Assembly (NCBI GenBank): GCA_018302235.1
Contig: JAGVZW010000032.1
Location: 1 to 40,468 of the forward strand
Length of the DNA stretch: 40,468 bases
From: Candidatus Woesearchaeota archaeon
GTDB taxonomy: Archaea > Nanobdellota > Nanobdellia > SCGC-AAA011-G17 > GW2011-AR18
Direction of reading: 5' to 3'
The translations under genes were made by a program, and so were the position numbers. Shown here in pieces: positions 8,925-18,793 of the stretch (position 1 is the first letter of the stretch; each line of letters begins with the position of its first letter). The notes below the pieces were generated by a model, which was given only the letters and a program-made list of their open reading frames with translations, did not search any database and was not told the DNA's origin.

Positions 8925-9908
8925 ATGTTAAATTATAAAACAACCAAAGATATTAAACTCTCTGAAAAATTAATAGATCAAGTAATCGGTCAAGATGAAG
9001 CCATAAATATTGTTAAAAAAGCAGCTAAACAAAAGCGTCATGTGTTATTAATAGGTTCACCAGGAACAGGAAAATCCTTAATAGGACAAGCATTAGCAGA
9101 GTTATTGCCAAAAGAAAAATTACAAGATATATTAATTGTTCATAATGAACAAGATGATAATAATCCCCTAGTTAAAACCATGCCGAGAGGTCAGGCTAAA
9201 GATTTAGTTAATAAATTAAAAATTCAATCTCTTTCTTCAGCAAAAAATCAAAATCTACTCTTTTTTATCTTATTACTTGCCTCAATATTTACACCATGGT
9301 GGATAAGAAAAGAATATGGTGACATAATGGCAGCCGCATCTTTAATAGGTTCAATGATCTTTTTAGCAGCATTTGTTATTTTTATTAATATTTCAAAAAG
9401 AATGCAAACCTCTAAATTTCACATTCCTAAAGTTCTAGTGGATAACTCTGAAAAAAAAGCAGCCCCTTTTTTCGATGCTAGTGGAGCTAATTCAGGTGCT
9501 CTTTTAGGCGATGTACTTCATGATCCGCTTCAAAGTTTTGTTACTTCAGAGTTACAACAATTAAAAGAAAATAAAAAATCAACAATTAAAATAAAAGAAA
9601 CAATAAATATCTTATTAAAAAAACATAAAAAAGAATTAATAAAAAAAGGAAAATATCAAGCAACAGATTTGAATAAAAACGAACTTAAAGTTTTAGCAGA
9701 GAAAAATAAAAAAGCAAAAGAGGCGGAAGTATTATCAGTTAATAAATACAAATACAATGGAAATTTAATTAAATTAACCACAAAATCAGGAAAATCGGTA
9801 ATTGTCACACCAGAACACAAAGTAGCAGTAAAAAATTGGTTAGGCAAAATAATTTACAAAAGAGCTGATAAAATAAAACCATGGAACAAGCTAATTACTA
9901 TTGCTTAA
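8925..9908 (+). CDS. lonB: LonB N-terminal half (Walker A, TM segments) fused to split N-intein
   Basis: GSPGTGKS, two TM helices, ASGANSGALLGDVLHDPLQ; then ~124 aa intein-like sequence with block B (GNLIKLTTKSGKSVIVTPEHKV) ending ADKIKPWNKLITIA. Confidence 0.88.
   Translation: MLNYKTTKDIKLSEKLIDQVIGQDEAINIVKKAAKQKRHVLLIGSPGTGKSLIGQALAELLPKEKLQDILIVHNEQDDNNPLVKTMPRGQAKDLVNKLKIQSLSSAKNQNLLFFILLLASIFTPWWIRKEYGDIMAAASLIGSMIFLAAFVIFINISKRMQTSKFHIPKVLVDNSEKKAAPFFDASGANSGALLGDVLHDPLQSFVTSELQQLKENKKSTIKIKETINILLKKHKKELIKKGKYQATDLNKNELKVLAEKNKKAKEAEVLSVNKYKYNGNLIKLTTKSGKSVIVTPEHKVAVKNWLGKIIYKRADKIKPWNKLITIA
9534..9905 (+). other. Split intein N-terminal part (124 aa, Ser1)
   Basis: Interrupts LonB motif HDPLQ|SGGLGTP; block B-like VTPEHKV; stops at the canonical split/endonuclease insertion position. 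Confidence 0.8.
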
Positions 9909-10039
9909 ATCTTTTAATCTTTGCTAATAGTCGCACTTGACAACCACACGCCAGATTTAAATATTAAATTTACTTATTATATATTAAATGGAAAACACAA
10001 ATTAATAAAACTTATTAGAATTTAAATATATCACCAAAA

Positions 10040-10138
10040 ATGTTAGAAATTTTAGAAAATAAACTAGTTTTTGGAGATGAATTTGAAGTTAATAATCAAT
10101 TAAATCATACAGAAACACAACAAACCTTAACAATTTAA
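10040..10138 (+). CDS. Short ORF (32 aa), unknown
   Basis: MLEILENKLVFGDEFEVNNQLNHTETQQTLTI; upstream TTTAAATA box; may be spurious. Confidence 0.25.
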   Translation: MLEILENKLVFGDEFEVNNQLNHTETQQTLTI

Positions 10139-10467
10139 TCTTTAACAATCAAACTTTTTATTCTTTGTTTAAAGTCAACATATAATTCTTCAGGCATATC
10201 CACTTTGACATTCAAATAATTAGTTTTTTCATTTAATTCATATTCCAACCTACATTCTCTTTTACAATTTCGATAGATAAATCGTCCAGTAGCACTTTTT
10301 TGATTTACAACCCCCCTTCCTTTTACCCATAATTCTCCCCCACCAAATTCAAAACCATATTGTTCTTTAAACCTATTTTCATCCATATATCTATAAAAAA
10401 ATTTAACAAAAACAATTCTATTTCTTTCTAAAATATTAAATTCAAACATAAAATAATTAAATAACAA
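10135..10467 (-). CDS. Hypothetical protein between split-intein halves
   Basis: 110-aa ORF (true start may be the internal MDENRFKEQYGFEFGGG). Confidence 0.5.
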   Translation of the reverse strand: MLFNYFMFEFNILERNRIVFVKFFYRYMDENRFKEQYGFEFGGGELWVKGRGVVNQKSATGRFIYRNCKRECRLEYELNEKTNYLNVKVDMPEELYVDFKQRIKSLIVKD

Positions 10468-10473
10468 AAATAT

Positions 10474-10869
10474 TTAAAGATTATCTAAAACAATTAATAA
10501 TTCTTCAACATCTTTAAATTTCCAAAAATTAAGAATTTTACCTTTAAAATCATACTCAATTATTATTTTTTTATGCCATGAATAGCCAAATAATCTTATT
10601 TCATTAAACTCTTTAAAACCTTGTTTTAATAATTCTAATTTAAAATAAAAAATTGATTCTCTTTTTTTAACAAGTTGTTTCTTTGCCTTTTCGATATTAT
10701 GTAATTTTCCTTCAAAAACAAAAAGAATATTTTTTCTTTGCGTAAGATGATCTATTTCATAAGTAATTTCCTTTATAGAAAAATCTCGTATAAACAAAGA
10801 ACTTTTTATAATATCAAAATTACTATTTCTTAGTAATATATCAAATTCTTTTTCATAACCTCTTTTCAT
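10474..10869 (-). CDS. Candidate PD-(D/E)XK-like nuclease between split-intein halves
   Basis: ITYEIDHLTQRKNILFVFEGKLHNIEKAKKQL matches an ExD...(hydrophobic)ExK...Q pattern; motif inference only. Confidence 0.4.
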   Translation of the reverse strand: MKRGYEKEFDILLRNSNFDIIKSSLFIRDFSIKEITYEIDHLTQRKNILFVFEGKLHNIEKAKKQLVKKRESIFYFKLELLKQGFKEFNEIRLFGYSWHKKIIIEYDFKGKILNFWKFKDVEELLIVLDNL

Positions 10870-10922
10870 AATATTCTAAAAAATCCACTAATCTTATAAA
10901 TTTTCCTACAAACAGATAAATA

Positions 10923-11033
10923 ATGAAATCAGAAAGAATAAAATTTATAAAAAAAGTTCCATATAAAGGTTACTTATATAACCTAACCACAGAAACAGGT
11001 AATATATTCGTAAATAAAATTCTTTGTAAAAAT
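10923..11033 (+). other. Split intein C-terminal part (37 aa, C-terminal Asn, +1 Ser)
   Basis: Block F-like [20 protein letters not shown] and block G-like ILCKN|S. Confidence 0.82.
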
Positions 11034-12290
11034 TCAGGAGGTTTAGGTACTCCTGCCTATGAACGTGTCATTGGTGGGTTGATTCATAAAGCTAATGGTG
11101 GTGTTTTATTTATAGATGAAATTGCAACCTTACAACCACATTCTCAACAAGAACTTCTAACAGCATTACAAGAAAAAAAATACCCTATAACAGGTCAATC
11201 AGAAAGATCAGCGGGGGCCATGGTGAGAACTGAGCCAATTCCTACTGACTTTATTTTAGTGGCAGCAGGAAATCTAGAAACAATAGAAAAAATGCACCCA
11301 GCATTAAGATCCAGAATAAAAGGATATGGTTATGAAATTTATATGAATGACACAATGGAAGATAATGAAATTAATAGAGAAAAAATAGCAGTGTTTGTAG
11401 CACAAGAAGTAAACAAAGACAAAAAAATTCCACATTTTACAAAAGAAGCAATTGATGAAATTATATTAGAAGCAAGAAAAATGGCAGGTATCTCGGGAAA
11501 AATAACTGTAAGATTAAGAGAATTAGGTGGACTAGTCAGAGCATCAGGTGATGTAGCACTAGAAGAAGGATCAGAATATGTTCAAGCAGAACACATAAAA
11601 AAAGCAAAAAAAATTGCAAGATCCTTAGAAACGCAAATTGCAGACAAATATATAGAAGCAAAGAAAAAATATGAAATAATTATAACAGAAGGAAATAAAA
11701 TTGGTAGAGTAAATGGTTTAGCAGTTATAGGAACAGATTCAGGTTATTCTGGAATTATATTGCCAATAGAATCTGAAGTAACCCACGGCGGAAAAAAAGC
11801 AGAAATAGTTGCAACAGGAAAATTGGGAGAGATAGCAAAAGAAGCTGTTCTAAATGTTTCAGGATTAGTTTCAAAATTCTTTGGAGAAGATATTAAAGAA
11901 AAATATGATATTTATGTACAATTTCTTCAAACCTCATCAGAAGGCGTAGAAGGAGATTCAGCTTCAATAGCAGTAGCAACAGCAATCATTTCAGCACTTA
12001 AAAAAATACCAATTAAACAAGACATAGCTATGACAGGCTCATTATCTATTAGGGGAGAAGTATTAGCTATTGGTGGAGTTACAGCAAAAGTAGAAGCCGC
12101 AATTGAAGGTGGAATAAAACAAGTAATAATCCCATATTCAAATGAAAAAGATCTTATTCTTAATGAAAAACAAAAATCACAAATTAAAATTATTCCAGTA
12201 AGAACAATAACAGAAGTTTTAGAGAGTGCCTTAGATTGGTCAAAACATAAAAAACTTCTAAATAATATAAAAACAATCAATGGAATTTAA
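10923..12290 (+). CDS. lonB: Split C-intein fused to LonB C-terminal half (Walker B and Ser-Lys protease domain)
   Basis: 37-aa C-intein MKSER...[21 protein letters not shown]| then [64 protein letters not shown]. Confidence 0.9.
12184..12290 (+). repeat. Direct repeat copy 1: lonB 3' end
   Basis: ~107 bp, 3 mismatches to 13556..13662. Confidence 0.93.
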
Positions 12291-12349
12291 TAACTAATAA
12301 GTAATAACAAAACGAAAGATTTAAATATTCTCTTAAAAACATAAAATTT

Positions 12350-13210
12350 ATGATAAAATTAGAGGATTTAACAGATATTCCAGAAAGAGAAGCAATTAGA
12401 GCTTGTTTAGATTTTTTACTCATAAGAAGAGATGAAGAAGGTTTTGTTGATCCAATAATTACAGGTTATAATTGTTACATTTATACTCCACAAACCAATA
12501 GAATAATAACATTTAGTCATATGCATGAAACTAAAACCTATAAGCAAGATATGTTAAGCGATTTAGAAACAATGTCTTATTCAAAAGAAGAACTAGATAA
12601 GAGTATTAGAGAGAAGTTGTCTATATTTTTATGGAGTCCAAAATTCTTAATAAGAGATGAAGAAGAGGTACCTTATATATCCCTAAGAGTGAGAGATATA
12701 AGAACAGATAAATTTATAGATTTAAAAAGATTTAAAGTATGTTTGGGAGAGAAAGAAGAATATAGTAATAGTTTTGGTTATTTAATTGGAGAGAACCAAG
12801 GTTGGCAATTAGATATGCTTTTTTCTAGTAAAGAAGAATTGTTCAATTTAATTAAGTTATTTTTAAGAAAATCTGGAAAAGACATTTATAATAATCAAGG
12901 ATTACTCATACCTGAAACAGAAGAAGAGAAAAATATTCGATCTCCATGGAGGGGGGCATATGAAACCCCAGTATTACTCTTAGGTGAATCAGTTTTAGGT
13001 TATTCAAATGAGTTACCTCAATTCAATTCAATTACAAGATTTGTTTTAAATAAAAATTCAAATGAAGTAAGTTTTGTTATCAATGAAAATTTAAAAAAAT
13101 TAATTCAATTGCCACAATATAAAGAATTAATTGATCTTGGATTTATAGAAGAAAAATGTTTAGGTAACAATGCATTCATAAAAGAATATGTTGACAAAAA
13201 GCCACAATAG
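12350..13210 (+). CDS. Hypothetical protein, paralogue of the inverted gene at 13972..14640
   Basis: 286 aa; TTTAAATA box ~30 bp upstream of ATG; clear similarity to both halves of the broken gene. Confidence 0.7.
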   Translation: MIKLEDLTDIPEREAIRACLDFLLIRRDEEGFVDPIITGYNCYIYTPQTNRIITFSHMHETKTYKQDMLSDLETMSYSKEELDKSIREKLSIFLWSPKFLIRDEEEVPYISLRVRDIRTDKFIDLKRFKVCLGEKEEYSNSFGYLIGENQGWQLDMLFSSKEELFNLIKLFLRKSGKDIYNNQGLLIPETEEEKNIRSPWRGAYETPVLLLGESVLGYSNELPQFNSITRFVLNKNSNEVSFVINENLKKLIQLPQYKELIDLGFIEEKCLGNNAFIKEYVDKKPQ

Positions 13211-13244: not shown

Positions 13245-13559
13245 ATGGCCTTAGATGTTTTTGTAGGAGACTTGGAATTAGTAAGAACAACAGAAGAATT
13301 AGATAGAATTATCTCTAGAATTAAAAGAGTTGAGAACGAGATTCATAACAAATCAGGAATAGTCTTAAAGCAAAATAATCTTGGTGGTAGTTATAGGGTT
13401 GTTTCAGAAGAACAAGCAAAAAGAGGTTTATCAAATTCAGGAATTGGAGAAAGATATATAGAGTTTTACACATTACAGGAGTTGAATAGATTAAAAACTA
13501 TACTTGAGGGCGAAGGAAGAAAAAAATATTTAGATCAACTTCATAGTTTTAGATCTTAA
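13245..13559 (+). CDS. Hypothetical protein
   Basis: 104-aa ORF; its stop lies at the start of the lonB 3' repeat copy. Confidence 0.5.
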   Translation: MALDVFVGDLELVRTTEELDRIISRIKRVENEIHNKSGIVLKQNNLGGSYRVVSEEQAKRGLSNSGIGERYIEFYTLQELNRLKTILEGEGRKKYLDQLHSFRS

Positions 13560-13662
13560 AATTATTCCAGTAAAAACAATAACAGAGGTTCTAGAGAGTG
13601 CCTTAGATTGGTCAAAACATAAAAAACTTCTAAATAATATAAAAACAATCAATGGAATTTAA
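13556..13662 (+). repeat. Direct repeat copy 2: displaced lonB 3' end
   Basis: ttaaaattattccagtaaaaacaataacagaggttctagagag...ggaatttaa, near-identical to the 3' end of lonB. Confidence 0.93.
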
Positions 13663-13677
13663 AAAACAGTATACATA

Positions 13678-17947: not shown

Positions 17948-18793
17948 ATGGTATCTTCAAACCTAGAGAATAACCTCAAAAACTCCTTTTCTAAGGTAAA
18001 AGAACACATTTCGCACTTAGAGTCAGAAATCCAATCAATCAAAAACCTAATCAATCAACAAAACCTCTTAATTCAGCAAATTTCAGCCAGAATTGAGGAT
18101 TTTAAGCACTTTAATCAAGATTCCACAAGAAATCCTGCTAAAACACCTATTCTTGAAAGTTCCACTGGAAAAAATGGGGTTAATCAATCAATCAATCAAC
18201 AAGCAATCAATCAATCAACAAGCAATCAAGCACTTAAGCACACGTCGGAAACCCCAAATAATACTTTTTTAGACCAATCAAGCACAATTAGGCCAGATAA
18301 TCAATCAATCACCAATCAATCACCCGTTAATCAATCACCAATCACTAAAAAAAAAGAAGAAAATTCTGATTTTAAGCTATCAAAAGGAATAATTTCGGAA
18401 AATTTCTTTAAAAAAATAACAAAACAAGAAGCAATTCAAGAGCAAAAACTAGAAACAATTAAATCCTTTAAAACCAACATAAATGATATTTTTAGAAACA
18501 TTTCCAAGCAAGAATTAAGAGTTTTTTTAACAATCTACCAACTAGAAGATGATAAAATAGAAGCCACTTATGCTACAGTTTCACAGCAAATTAAACTCTC
18601 AGAATCTTGTATTAGAGGTTATATAAGCACCATTATCAAGAAAGGTCTTCCACTTTCAAAACAAAAGTTAAATAATCAAAAAACAGTTTTTTTTATTATC
18701 CCAGAATTTAAATCTTTAGGCCTCAAAAGTAAGCTAATTACTCGTTTTTATGGATTCGAAGATCCCTATCAAAAGACTTTATTCGAGAGTTAA
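17948..18793 (+). CDS. Coiled-coil + disordered NQS-rich linker + winged-helix DNA-binding protein
   Basis: N-terminal heptads, NQSINQQ linker, C-terminal HTH (ISKQELRVFLTIYQLEDDKIEATYATVSQQIKLSESCIRGYISTIIKKGL). Confidence 0.7.
   Translation: MVSSNLENNLKNSFSKVKEHISHLESEIQSIKNLINQQNLLIQQISARIEDFKHFNQDSTRNPAKTPILESSTGKNGVNQSINQQAINQSTSNQALKHTSETPNNTFLDQSSTIRPDNQSITNQSPVNQSPITKKKEENSDFKLSKGIISENFFKKITKQEAIQEQKLETIKSFKTNINDIFRNISKQELRVFLTIYQLEDDKIEATYATVSQQIKLSESCIRGYISTIIKKGLPLSKQKLNNQKTVFFIIPEFKSLGLKSKLITRFYGFEDPYQKTLFES

Follow-up and report, generated by a model that had tools for sequence, protein, structure and literature searches.

The closest described systems are the fractured genes of Dassa et al. 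2009, in which split inteins reportedly occur together with free-standing homing endonucleases. The locus described here is a split lonB gene in a 40,468-nucleotide stretch of DNA from a Candidatus Woesearchaeota archaeon (the whole stretch is referred to as the window), which forms contig C3 of a draft genome of 816 kb. As in the fractured genes, a split intein divides the host gene over two open reading frames (ORFs), and unrelated ORFs lie between the two parts. There are several differences. First, the host gene is an archaeal lonB, and the resident endonuclease of related loci is intein-type rather than Vsr-like. Second, forms in which the endonuclease is still fused to the N-half occur among the lonB loci. 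Third, the window is without the endonuclease, and a pair of minus-strand genes occupies the gap. Among the papers searched, none dealt with an intein in lonB or with a fractured lonB gene in archaea.

Two further comparisons are relevant, one for each kind of gap occupant. All nine intact endonucleases from lonB gaps match the endonuclease (middle) part of an RtcB-related intein, NF038162, which is LAGLIDADG-like (E down to 4e-28; E-values from small alignments are rough throughout this analysis). Unlike in that intein, the endonuclease is a separate gene in the lonB loci of this order, and it is absent from the window. The larger of the two window gap proteins, P0001, resembles UPF0102/YraN, NERD, Hjc and Card1 in its D-x(12)-E-x-K spacing and KAKKQL-type helix, but falls below every curated cut-off, has a longer C-terminal part, and is partnered. 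The explanation that we consider probable is that LonB is trans-spliced around a gap that tolerates insertions, that the endonuclease has been lost from this gap, and that an unrelated two-gene cassette, which would function independently of the intein, has settled there on the opposite strand.

The split lonB and its intein

The two lonB ORFs are both on the plus strand, with 8925–9908 encoding LonB-N and the intein N-half, and 10923–12290 encoding the intein C-half and LonB-C. The N-extein (amino acids 1–203, positions 8925–9533; TIGR00764, E 7e-59) ends in HDPLQ and is followed by the intein N-half (9534–9908; TIGR01445 intein_Nterm, E 1.8e-8), which runs from S1 to LITIA and a stop codon at 9906–9908. 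Beyond a gap of 1014 nt (9909–10922), a 37-residue C-half (10923–11033, start codon ATG at 10923) ends in ILCKN and leads directly into the C-extein (11034–12290; TIGR00764, E 7e-184), which starts with SGGLGTP and contains the Lon protease domain. The junctions are placed between HDPLQ and S, and between KN and SGGLGTP, because relatives with an uninterrupted gene can be aligned across HDPLQSGGLGTP in a single frame; a search for relatives with an empty lonB site identified about 66 such genomes in the order. Both the gap coordinates and the presence of a split intein in lonB, as proposed in an initial annotation of the sequence, are thus upheld.

The splicing motifs of the window intein (S1, the TPEHK block, and KN followed by S) are intact, which suggests that the LonB halves are presumably translated separately and joined by trans-splicing. 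Residue 1 of the intein is serine, threonine or cysteine in relatives. The loci supply, from archaea not yet in culture, many candidate natural split inteins with such starts in a protease gene. In the window, a 53-nt divergent intergenic region (10870–10922) separates P0001 from the C-half and contains a putatively functional TATA-like sequence, TTATAAAT, at 10894–10901, with about 25 nt between it and either start codon. Many loci of the order have a TATA-like box approximately 25 nt before the ATG of the C-half, which could therefore be transcribed independently. All contigs are of draft quality and assembly error is possible at any single locus, but the many independent split loci speak against an artefact.

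A minus-strand gene pair in the gap

There are two genes in the window gap, both on the minus strand. P0001 encodes a 131-residue protein (10474–10869) and is followed by the gene for its partner, P0002 (10135–10449); the remainder, 9909–10134, is a spacer with no recognisable gene. The initial annotation had described ORFs of 131 and 110 codons, and the first of these stands; the second depends on a TTG start, whereas the ATG at 10449 is the likelier one and gives a protein of 104 residues. These are real genes, with co-oriented, paired relatives in two other genomes (G028 and G075; genomes, contigs and loci are given as G, C and L numbers), and the order, strand and a spacing of 23–25 nt are kept in all three complete loci. 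The partners in the other genomes are 109 or 116 residues long. In simulations of the gap with a Markov model (GC 0.216), the longest ORF reached at least 131 codons in 1 of 5000 cases and at least 105 in 20 of 5000, and the GC skew is strongly negative across the gap, like that of other minus-strand genes in the window.

P0001 looks like a divergent PD-(D/E)XK-type protein. First, it contains the motif YEIDHLTQRKNILFVFEGKLHNIEKAKKQL on which the initial annotation based its suggestion of such a nuclease, with the putative catalytic residues D40, E53 and K55 encoded at 10750–10752, 10711–10713 and 10705–10707. Second, E6, D40, E53 and K55 are invariant in all four family members (residue 54 is glycine or cysteine), and the EIDH/FEGK motif is retained even in a decayed copy on contig C24 of the same genome. 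Third, a profile of the P0001 family reaches about twenty proteins of approximately 95 residues in other genomes of the class. These belong to a widespread DPANN family (L014–L036) with the pattern KHDxYVxEL...GEIDIIA...DLYEVKC...KAKKQL, which has no Pfam family of its own. Profile–profile comparison of P0001 with this KHD family gives probabilities of 95–96.5 and scores of 48–57, against at most 16.4 in 100 column-shuffled controls, and aligns D40 and E53-x-K55 with the EIDI...YEVKC residues. Members of the KHD family in turn lean to UPF0102, NERD, Hjc and Card1, all of them PD-(D/E)XK (E 0.003–0.005, below curated cut-offs). The motif and the profile match thus support the initial assignment, although no confident fold is predicted for the protein.

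The strong link to the superfamily runs solely by way of the KHD family. P0001 has no direct Pfam match, and its best match among toxin, antitoxin and defence families is an unconvincing one to a stretch of Cas12c (E 0.003). A relative, P0008, matches Card1 and NERD weakly (E 0.04), and also weakly the PADLOC models PD_DExK and CARF-PDDEXK (E 3e-4 to 1e-3, with PD_DExK at 1e-3). P0002 has no match in Pfam, NCBIfam or PADLOC, in agreement with the initial annotation, which recognised no family. The three partners are alike in length, in position, and in a C-terminal strand-strand-helix pattern; their homology to one another is likely but weak. A profile built from all three, run against 342 genomes of the phylum, finds no further clear member. 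The nuclease-like pair is in itself a small uncharacterised module.

The P0001 gene is present at four other places, none of them in an intein. Two are in the same genome, on contigs C17 and C24, the latter close to a nucleotidyltransferase gene. In G028 the relative lies beside a gene for a large cysteine-rich membrane-type protein, and in G075 it has a transporter-like gene on one side and nucleotidyltransferase genes on the other. Genes of the MNT type of nucleotidyltransferase adjoin two of the relatives (L121, 3683–4195, and L005, 169–681). P0001 is complete in three genomes, and no relatives were found in phage, plasmid or viral contigs. Two weak matches were dropped, one in G020 that lies in a radical-SAM-like ORF, and a second one in G075 (E 0.009) that lies in a nucleotidyltransferase ORF.

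Forms of the lonB locus in related genomes

Within the order, lonB is split in 17 of 103 genomes, and both halves are seen in 12 genomes besides the window. Most of the gaps contain a free-standing gene of about 350 codons, oriented with lonB. Each of the nine intact copies encodes two LAGLIDADG-like motifs, which include D106 and E210; searches with the protein give no significant match in Pfam, LAGLIDADG models included, or among Protein Data Bank (PDB) profiles. This endonuclease gene is damaged in several genomes, by a frameshift in G007, a 5′ truncation in G073 and a stop codon in G074, and what is left of it is a 60-codon remnant in G038 and, in G035, a small fragment. In the window there is no match to it below E 0.18, and in the gap none below E 2.7, which rules out a detectable remnant. 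The gap spacer was also considered as a genomic repeat, and this too was ruled out, as it has short A+T-rich matches alone in the genome.

Of the 378 class genomes searched, 25 contain the intein C-half (fractured loci L102–L117, from G076 to G012, and L137–L144), which always opens a separate LonB-C ORF; the searches found no lonB intein in a single unbroken frame. Outside the order, six genomes (G187, G197, G222, G225, G246 and G262) have an N-half ORF of 682–700 codons in which LonB-N, the intein N-half and the endonuclease are in one frame; the C-half ORF begins 3 nt downstream or overlaps by 4 nt in four of these, and lies 224 or 325 nt away in the other two. The endonuclease of G024 and G095 has its own ORF, which overlaps or abuts the halves, and in G210 and G103 the endonuclease is mostly or wholly lost. 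We infer that these forms may represent successive steps in a presumed direction, in which the endonuclease would be fused to the N-half while the C-half is already separate, then freed, then decayed, and finally, as in the window, lost with the gap refilled. A single locus that displays forms resembling such steps is relevant to the origin of split inteins.

The split state is also scattered on a LonB tree of 47 genomes, in which the uninterrupted genes are represented by the 30 best-scoring rows and not by a random draw. It requires 13 changes, of which well-supported branches force at least 6, and its clustering does not exceed that of shuffled labels, as would be expected of a mobile element.

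Explanations for the window gap

The explanation we favor, an unrelated cassette that settled in the gap of a presumably trans-spliced lonB, would involve the following steps. The gene would have been broken at HDPLQ/SGGLGTP by a two-part intein, with the two halves made apart and spliced in trans. The gap would formerly have housed the intein's endonuclease gene, which is still fused or free-standing in most relatives; because splitting lifts the reading-frame constraint from the gap, this gene can decay and other DNA can settle there. In the lineage of the window the endonuclease would have been lost, and a mobile minus-strand cassette, consisting of P0001 and a partner of about 105 residues, would have moved in and persisted, because DNA at this position leaves lonB unbroken. 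The most likely predicted activity of the cassette is metal-dependent cleavage of DNA or RNA, controlled by or together with the partner. The pair is probably a passenger that may act as a selfish or defence-like nuclease module, a role that would fit because it is rare, present in several copies, and decaying. The explanation is supported by the invariant residues and profile match of P0001, by the conserved pairing, by the copies outside inteins, by the intact, decayed or lost endonuclease in the gaps of relatives, and by other gaps that hold as much as 5.4 kb of unrelated genes.

Several observations weigh against this explanation. The loss of the endonuclease is itself inferred, with no remnant left. 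Of the other copies in the genome, the one on C17, which lies after a ZPR1 gene, runs into the contig end, so that any partner gene is hidden, and no partner was found near the decayed copy on C24. One P0001 relative has SIDN where the others have EIDH. Homology between partners is weak, with no BLASTP match and an hhalign probability of 38. Finally, the structure models are poor, because only two sequences went into each: the AlphaFold2 model of P0001 has a pLDDT of 61.9 and gives no Foldseek match that would confirm a nuclease fold, and the AlphaFold model of P0002 has a pLDDT of 46.9.

A sharper form of the same explanation, which we hold tentatively and judge somewhat less probable than its converse, is that the two genes form a toxin-antitoxin or anti-virus module, with the partner restraining or guiding the nuclease. 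The compact, co-oriented operon of two genes with constant spacing is consistent with this, as are the sporadic distribution and decay, the nucleotidyltransferase genes adjoining both the G075 pair and the C24 copy, and the weak PADLOC matches of P0008. However, the window proteins show no convincing resemblance to any named family of toxins, antitoxins or defence proteins, the loci are few, and the partner fold model is weak.

Another and rather unlikely reading is that the gap acts as a dock for cargo. The endonuclease would cut uninterrupted lonB genes, repair would copy the whole gap, and the genes inside (regulators, helicases and nuclease pairs) would spread with the intein. There are hints of this in the scattered split state, in the frequency of cargo, and in one cargo protein whose gap copies are closest to one another. 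Gaps of 3–5.4 kb with unrelated genes are present in G002, G046, G035 and G074, and each of the large gaps contains a TrmB-type regulator (L107, 5510–6277; L113, 3444–4154; L108, 5704–6465; and the G035 gap, L114). A cargo protein of about 100 residues occurs in the gaps of G002 and G007 (one family) and of G076 (another family), with 61–63% identity between gaps and 34–42% to copies elsewhere. The locus makes it testable whether other genes land in, or travel with, a fractured gene. A relative of the 100-residue protein is also encoded at 18016–18267 of contig C29 in G005, about 1 kb past the matched part of an uninterrupted lonB.

It is slightly less likely again that P0001 is a housekeeping nuclease of DNA repair or RNA processing, or a catalytically dead relative, carried by chance. 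The wider KHD family, present across the class, is compatible with such a function, and so is a related protein that adjoins a HerA-like gene in G095 (L010); against it, P0001 is itself rare and decaying, which does not suit a gene of that kind.

The initial annotation had proposed a possible homing role for the 131-residue protein, and in the strongest version of this proposal the pair has replaced the intein-type endonuclease, with P0001 cutting empty lonB alleles and the gap being copied into them. Its position between the intein halves, its nuclease-like motifs, and the several copies and their decay in one genome, which fit a selfish nuclease, are in keeping with this idea. It nonetheless seems very improbable. 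First, as far as can be tested, every other copy lies outside an intein, which the initial annotation had named as grounds against its proposal, and the four places share no common target context. Second, the gaps of relatives usually hold a different, intein-type endonuclease. Third, constant pairing with a second protein is unusual for homing nucleases. Fourth, the pair is in just one of the 13 two-half loci of the order, the window being the sole carrier. P0001 is therefore probably not the homing endonuclease of the gap. That the two ORFs are chance open frames, as their shortness, A+T-richness and lack of a named family might suggest, is refuted by the paired homologues in two other genomes and by the simulated ORF lengths, and has almost no probability.

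Elsewhere in the window, the 3′ end of lonB recurs as a direct repeat of 110 nt (96%), at 12184–12293 and 13556–13665, the copies being 1372 nt apart. The repeat flanks ORFs at 12350–13210 and 13245–13559, and the arrangement resembles an insertion that duplicated the end of the gene.
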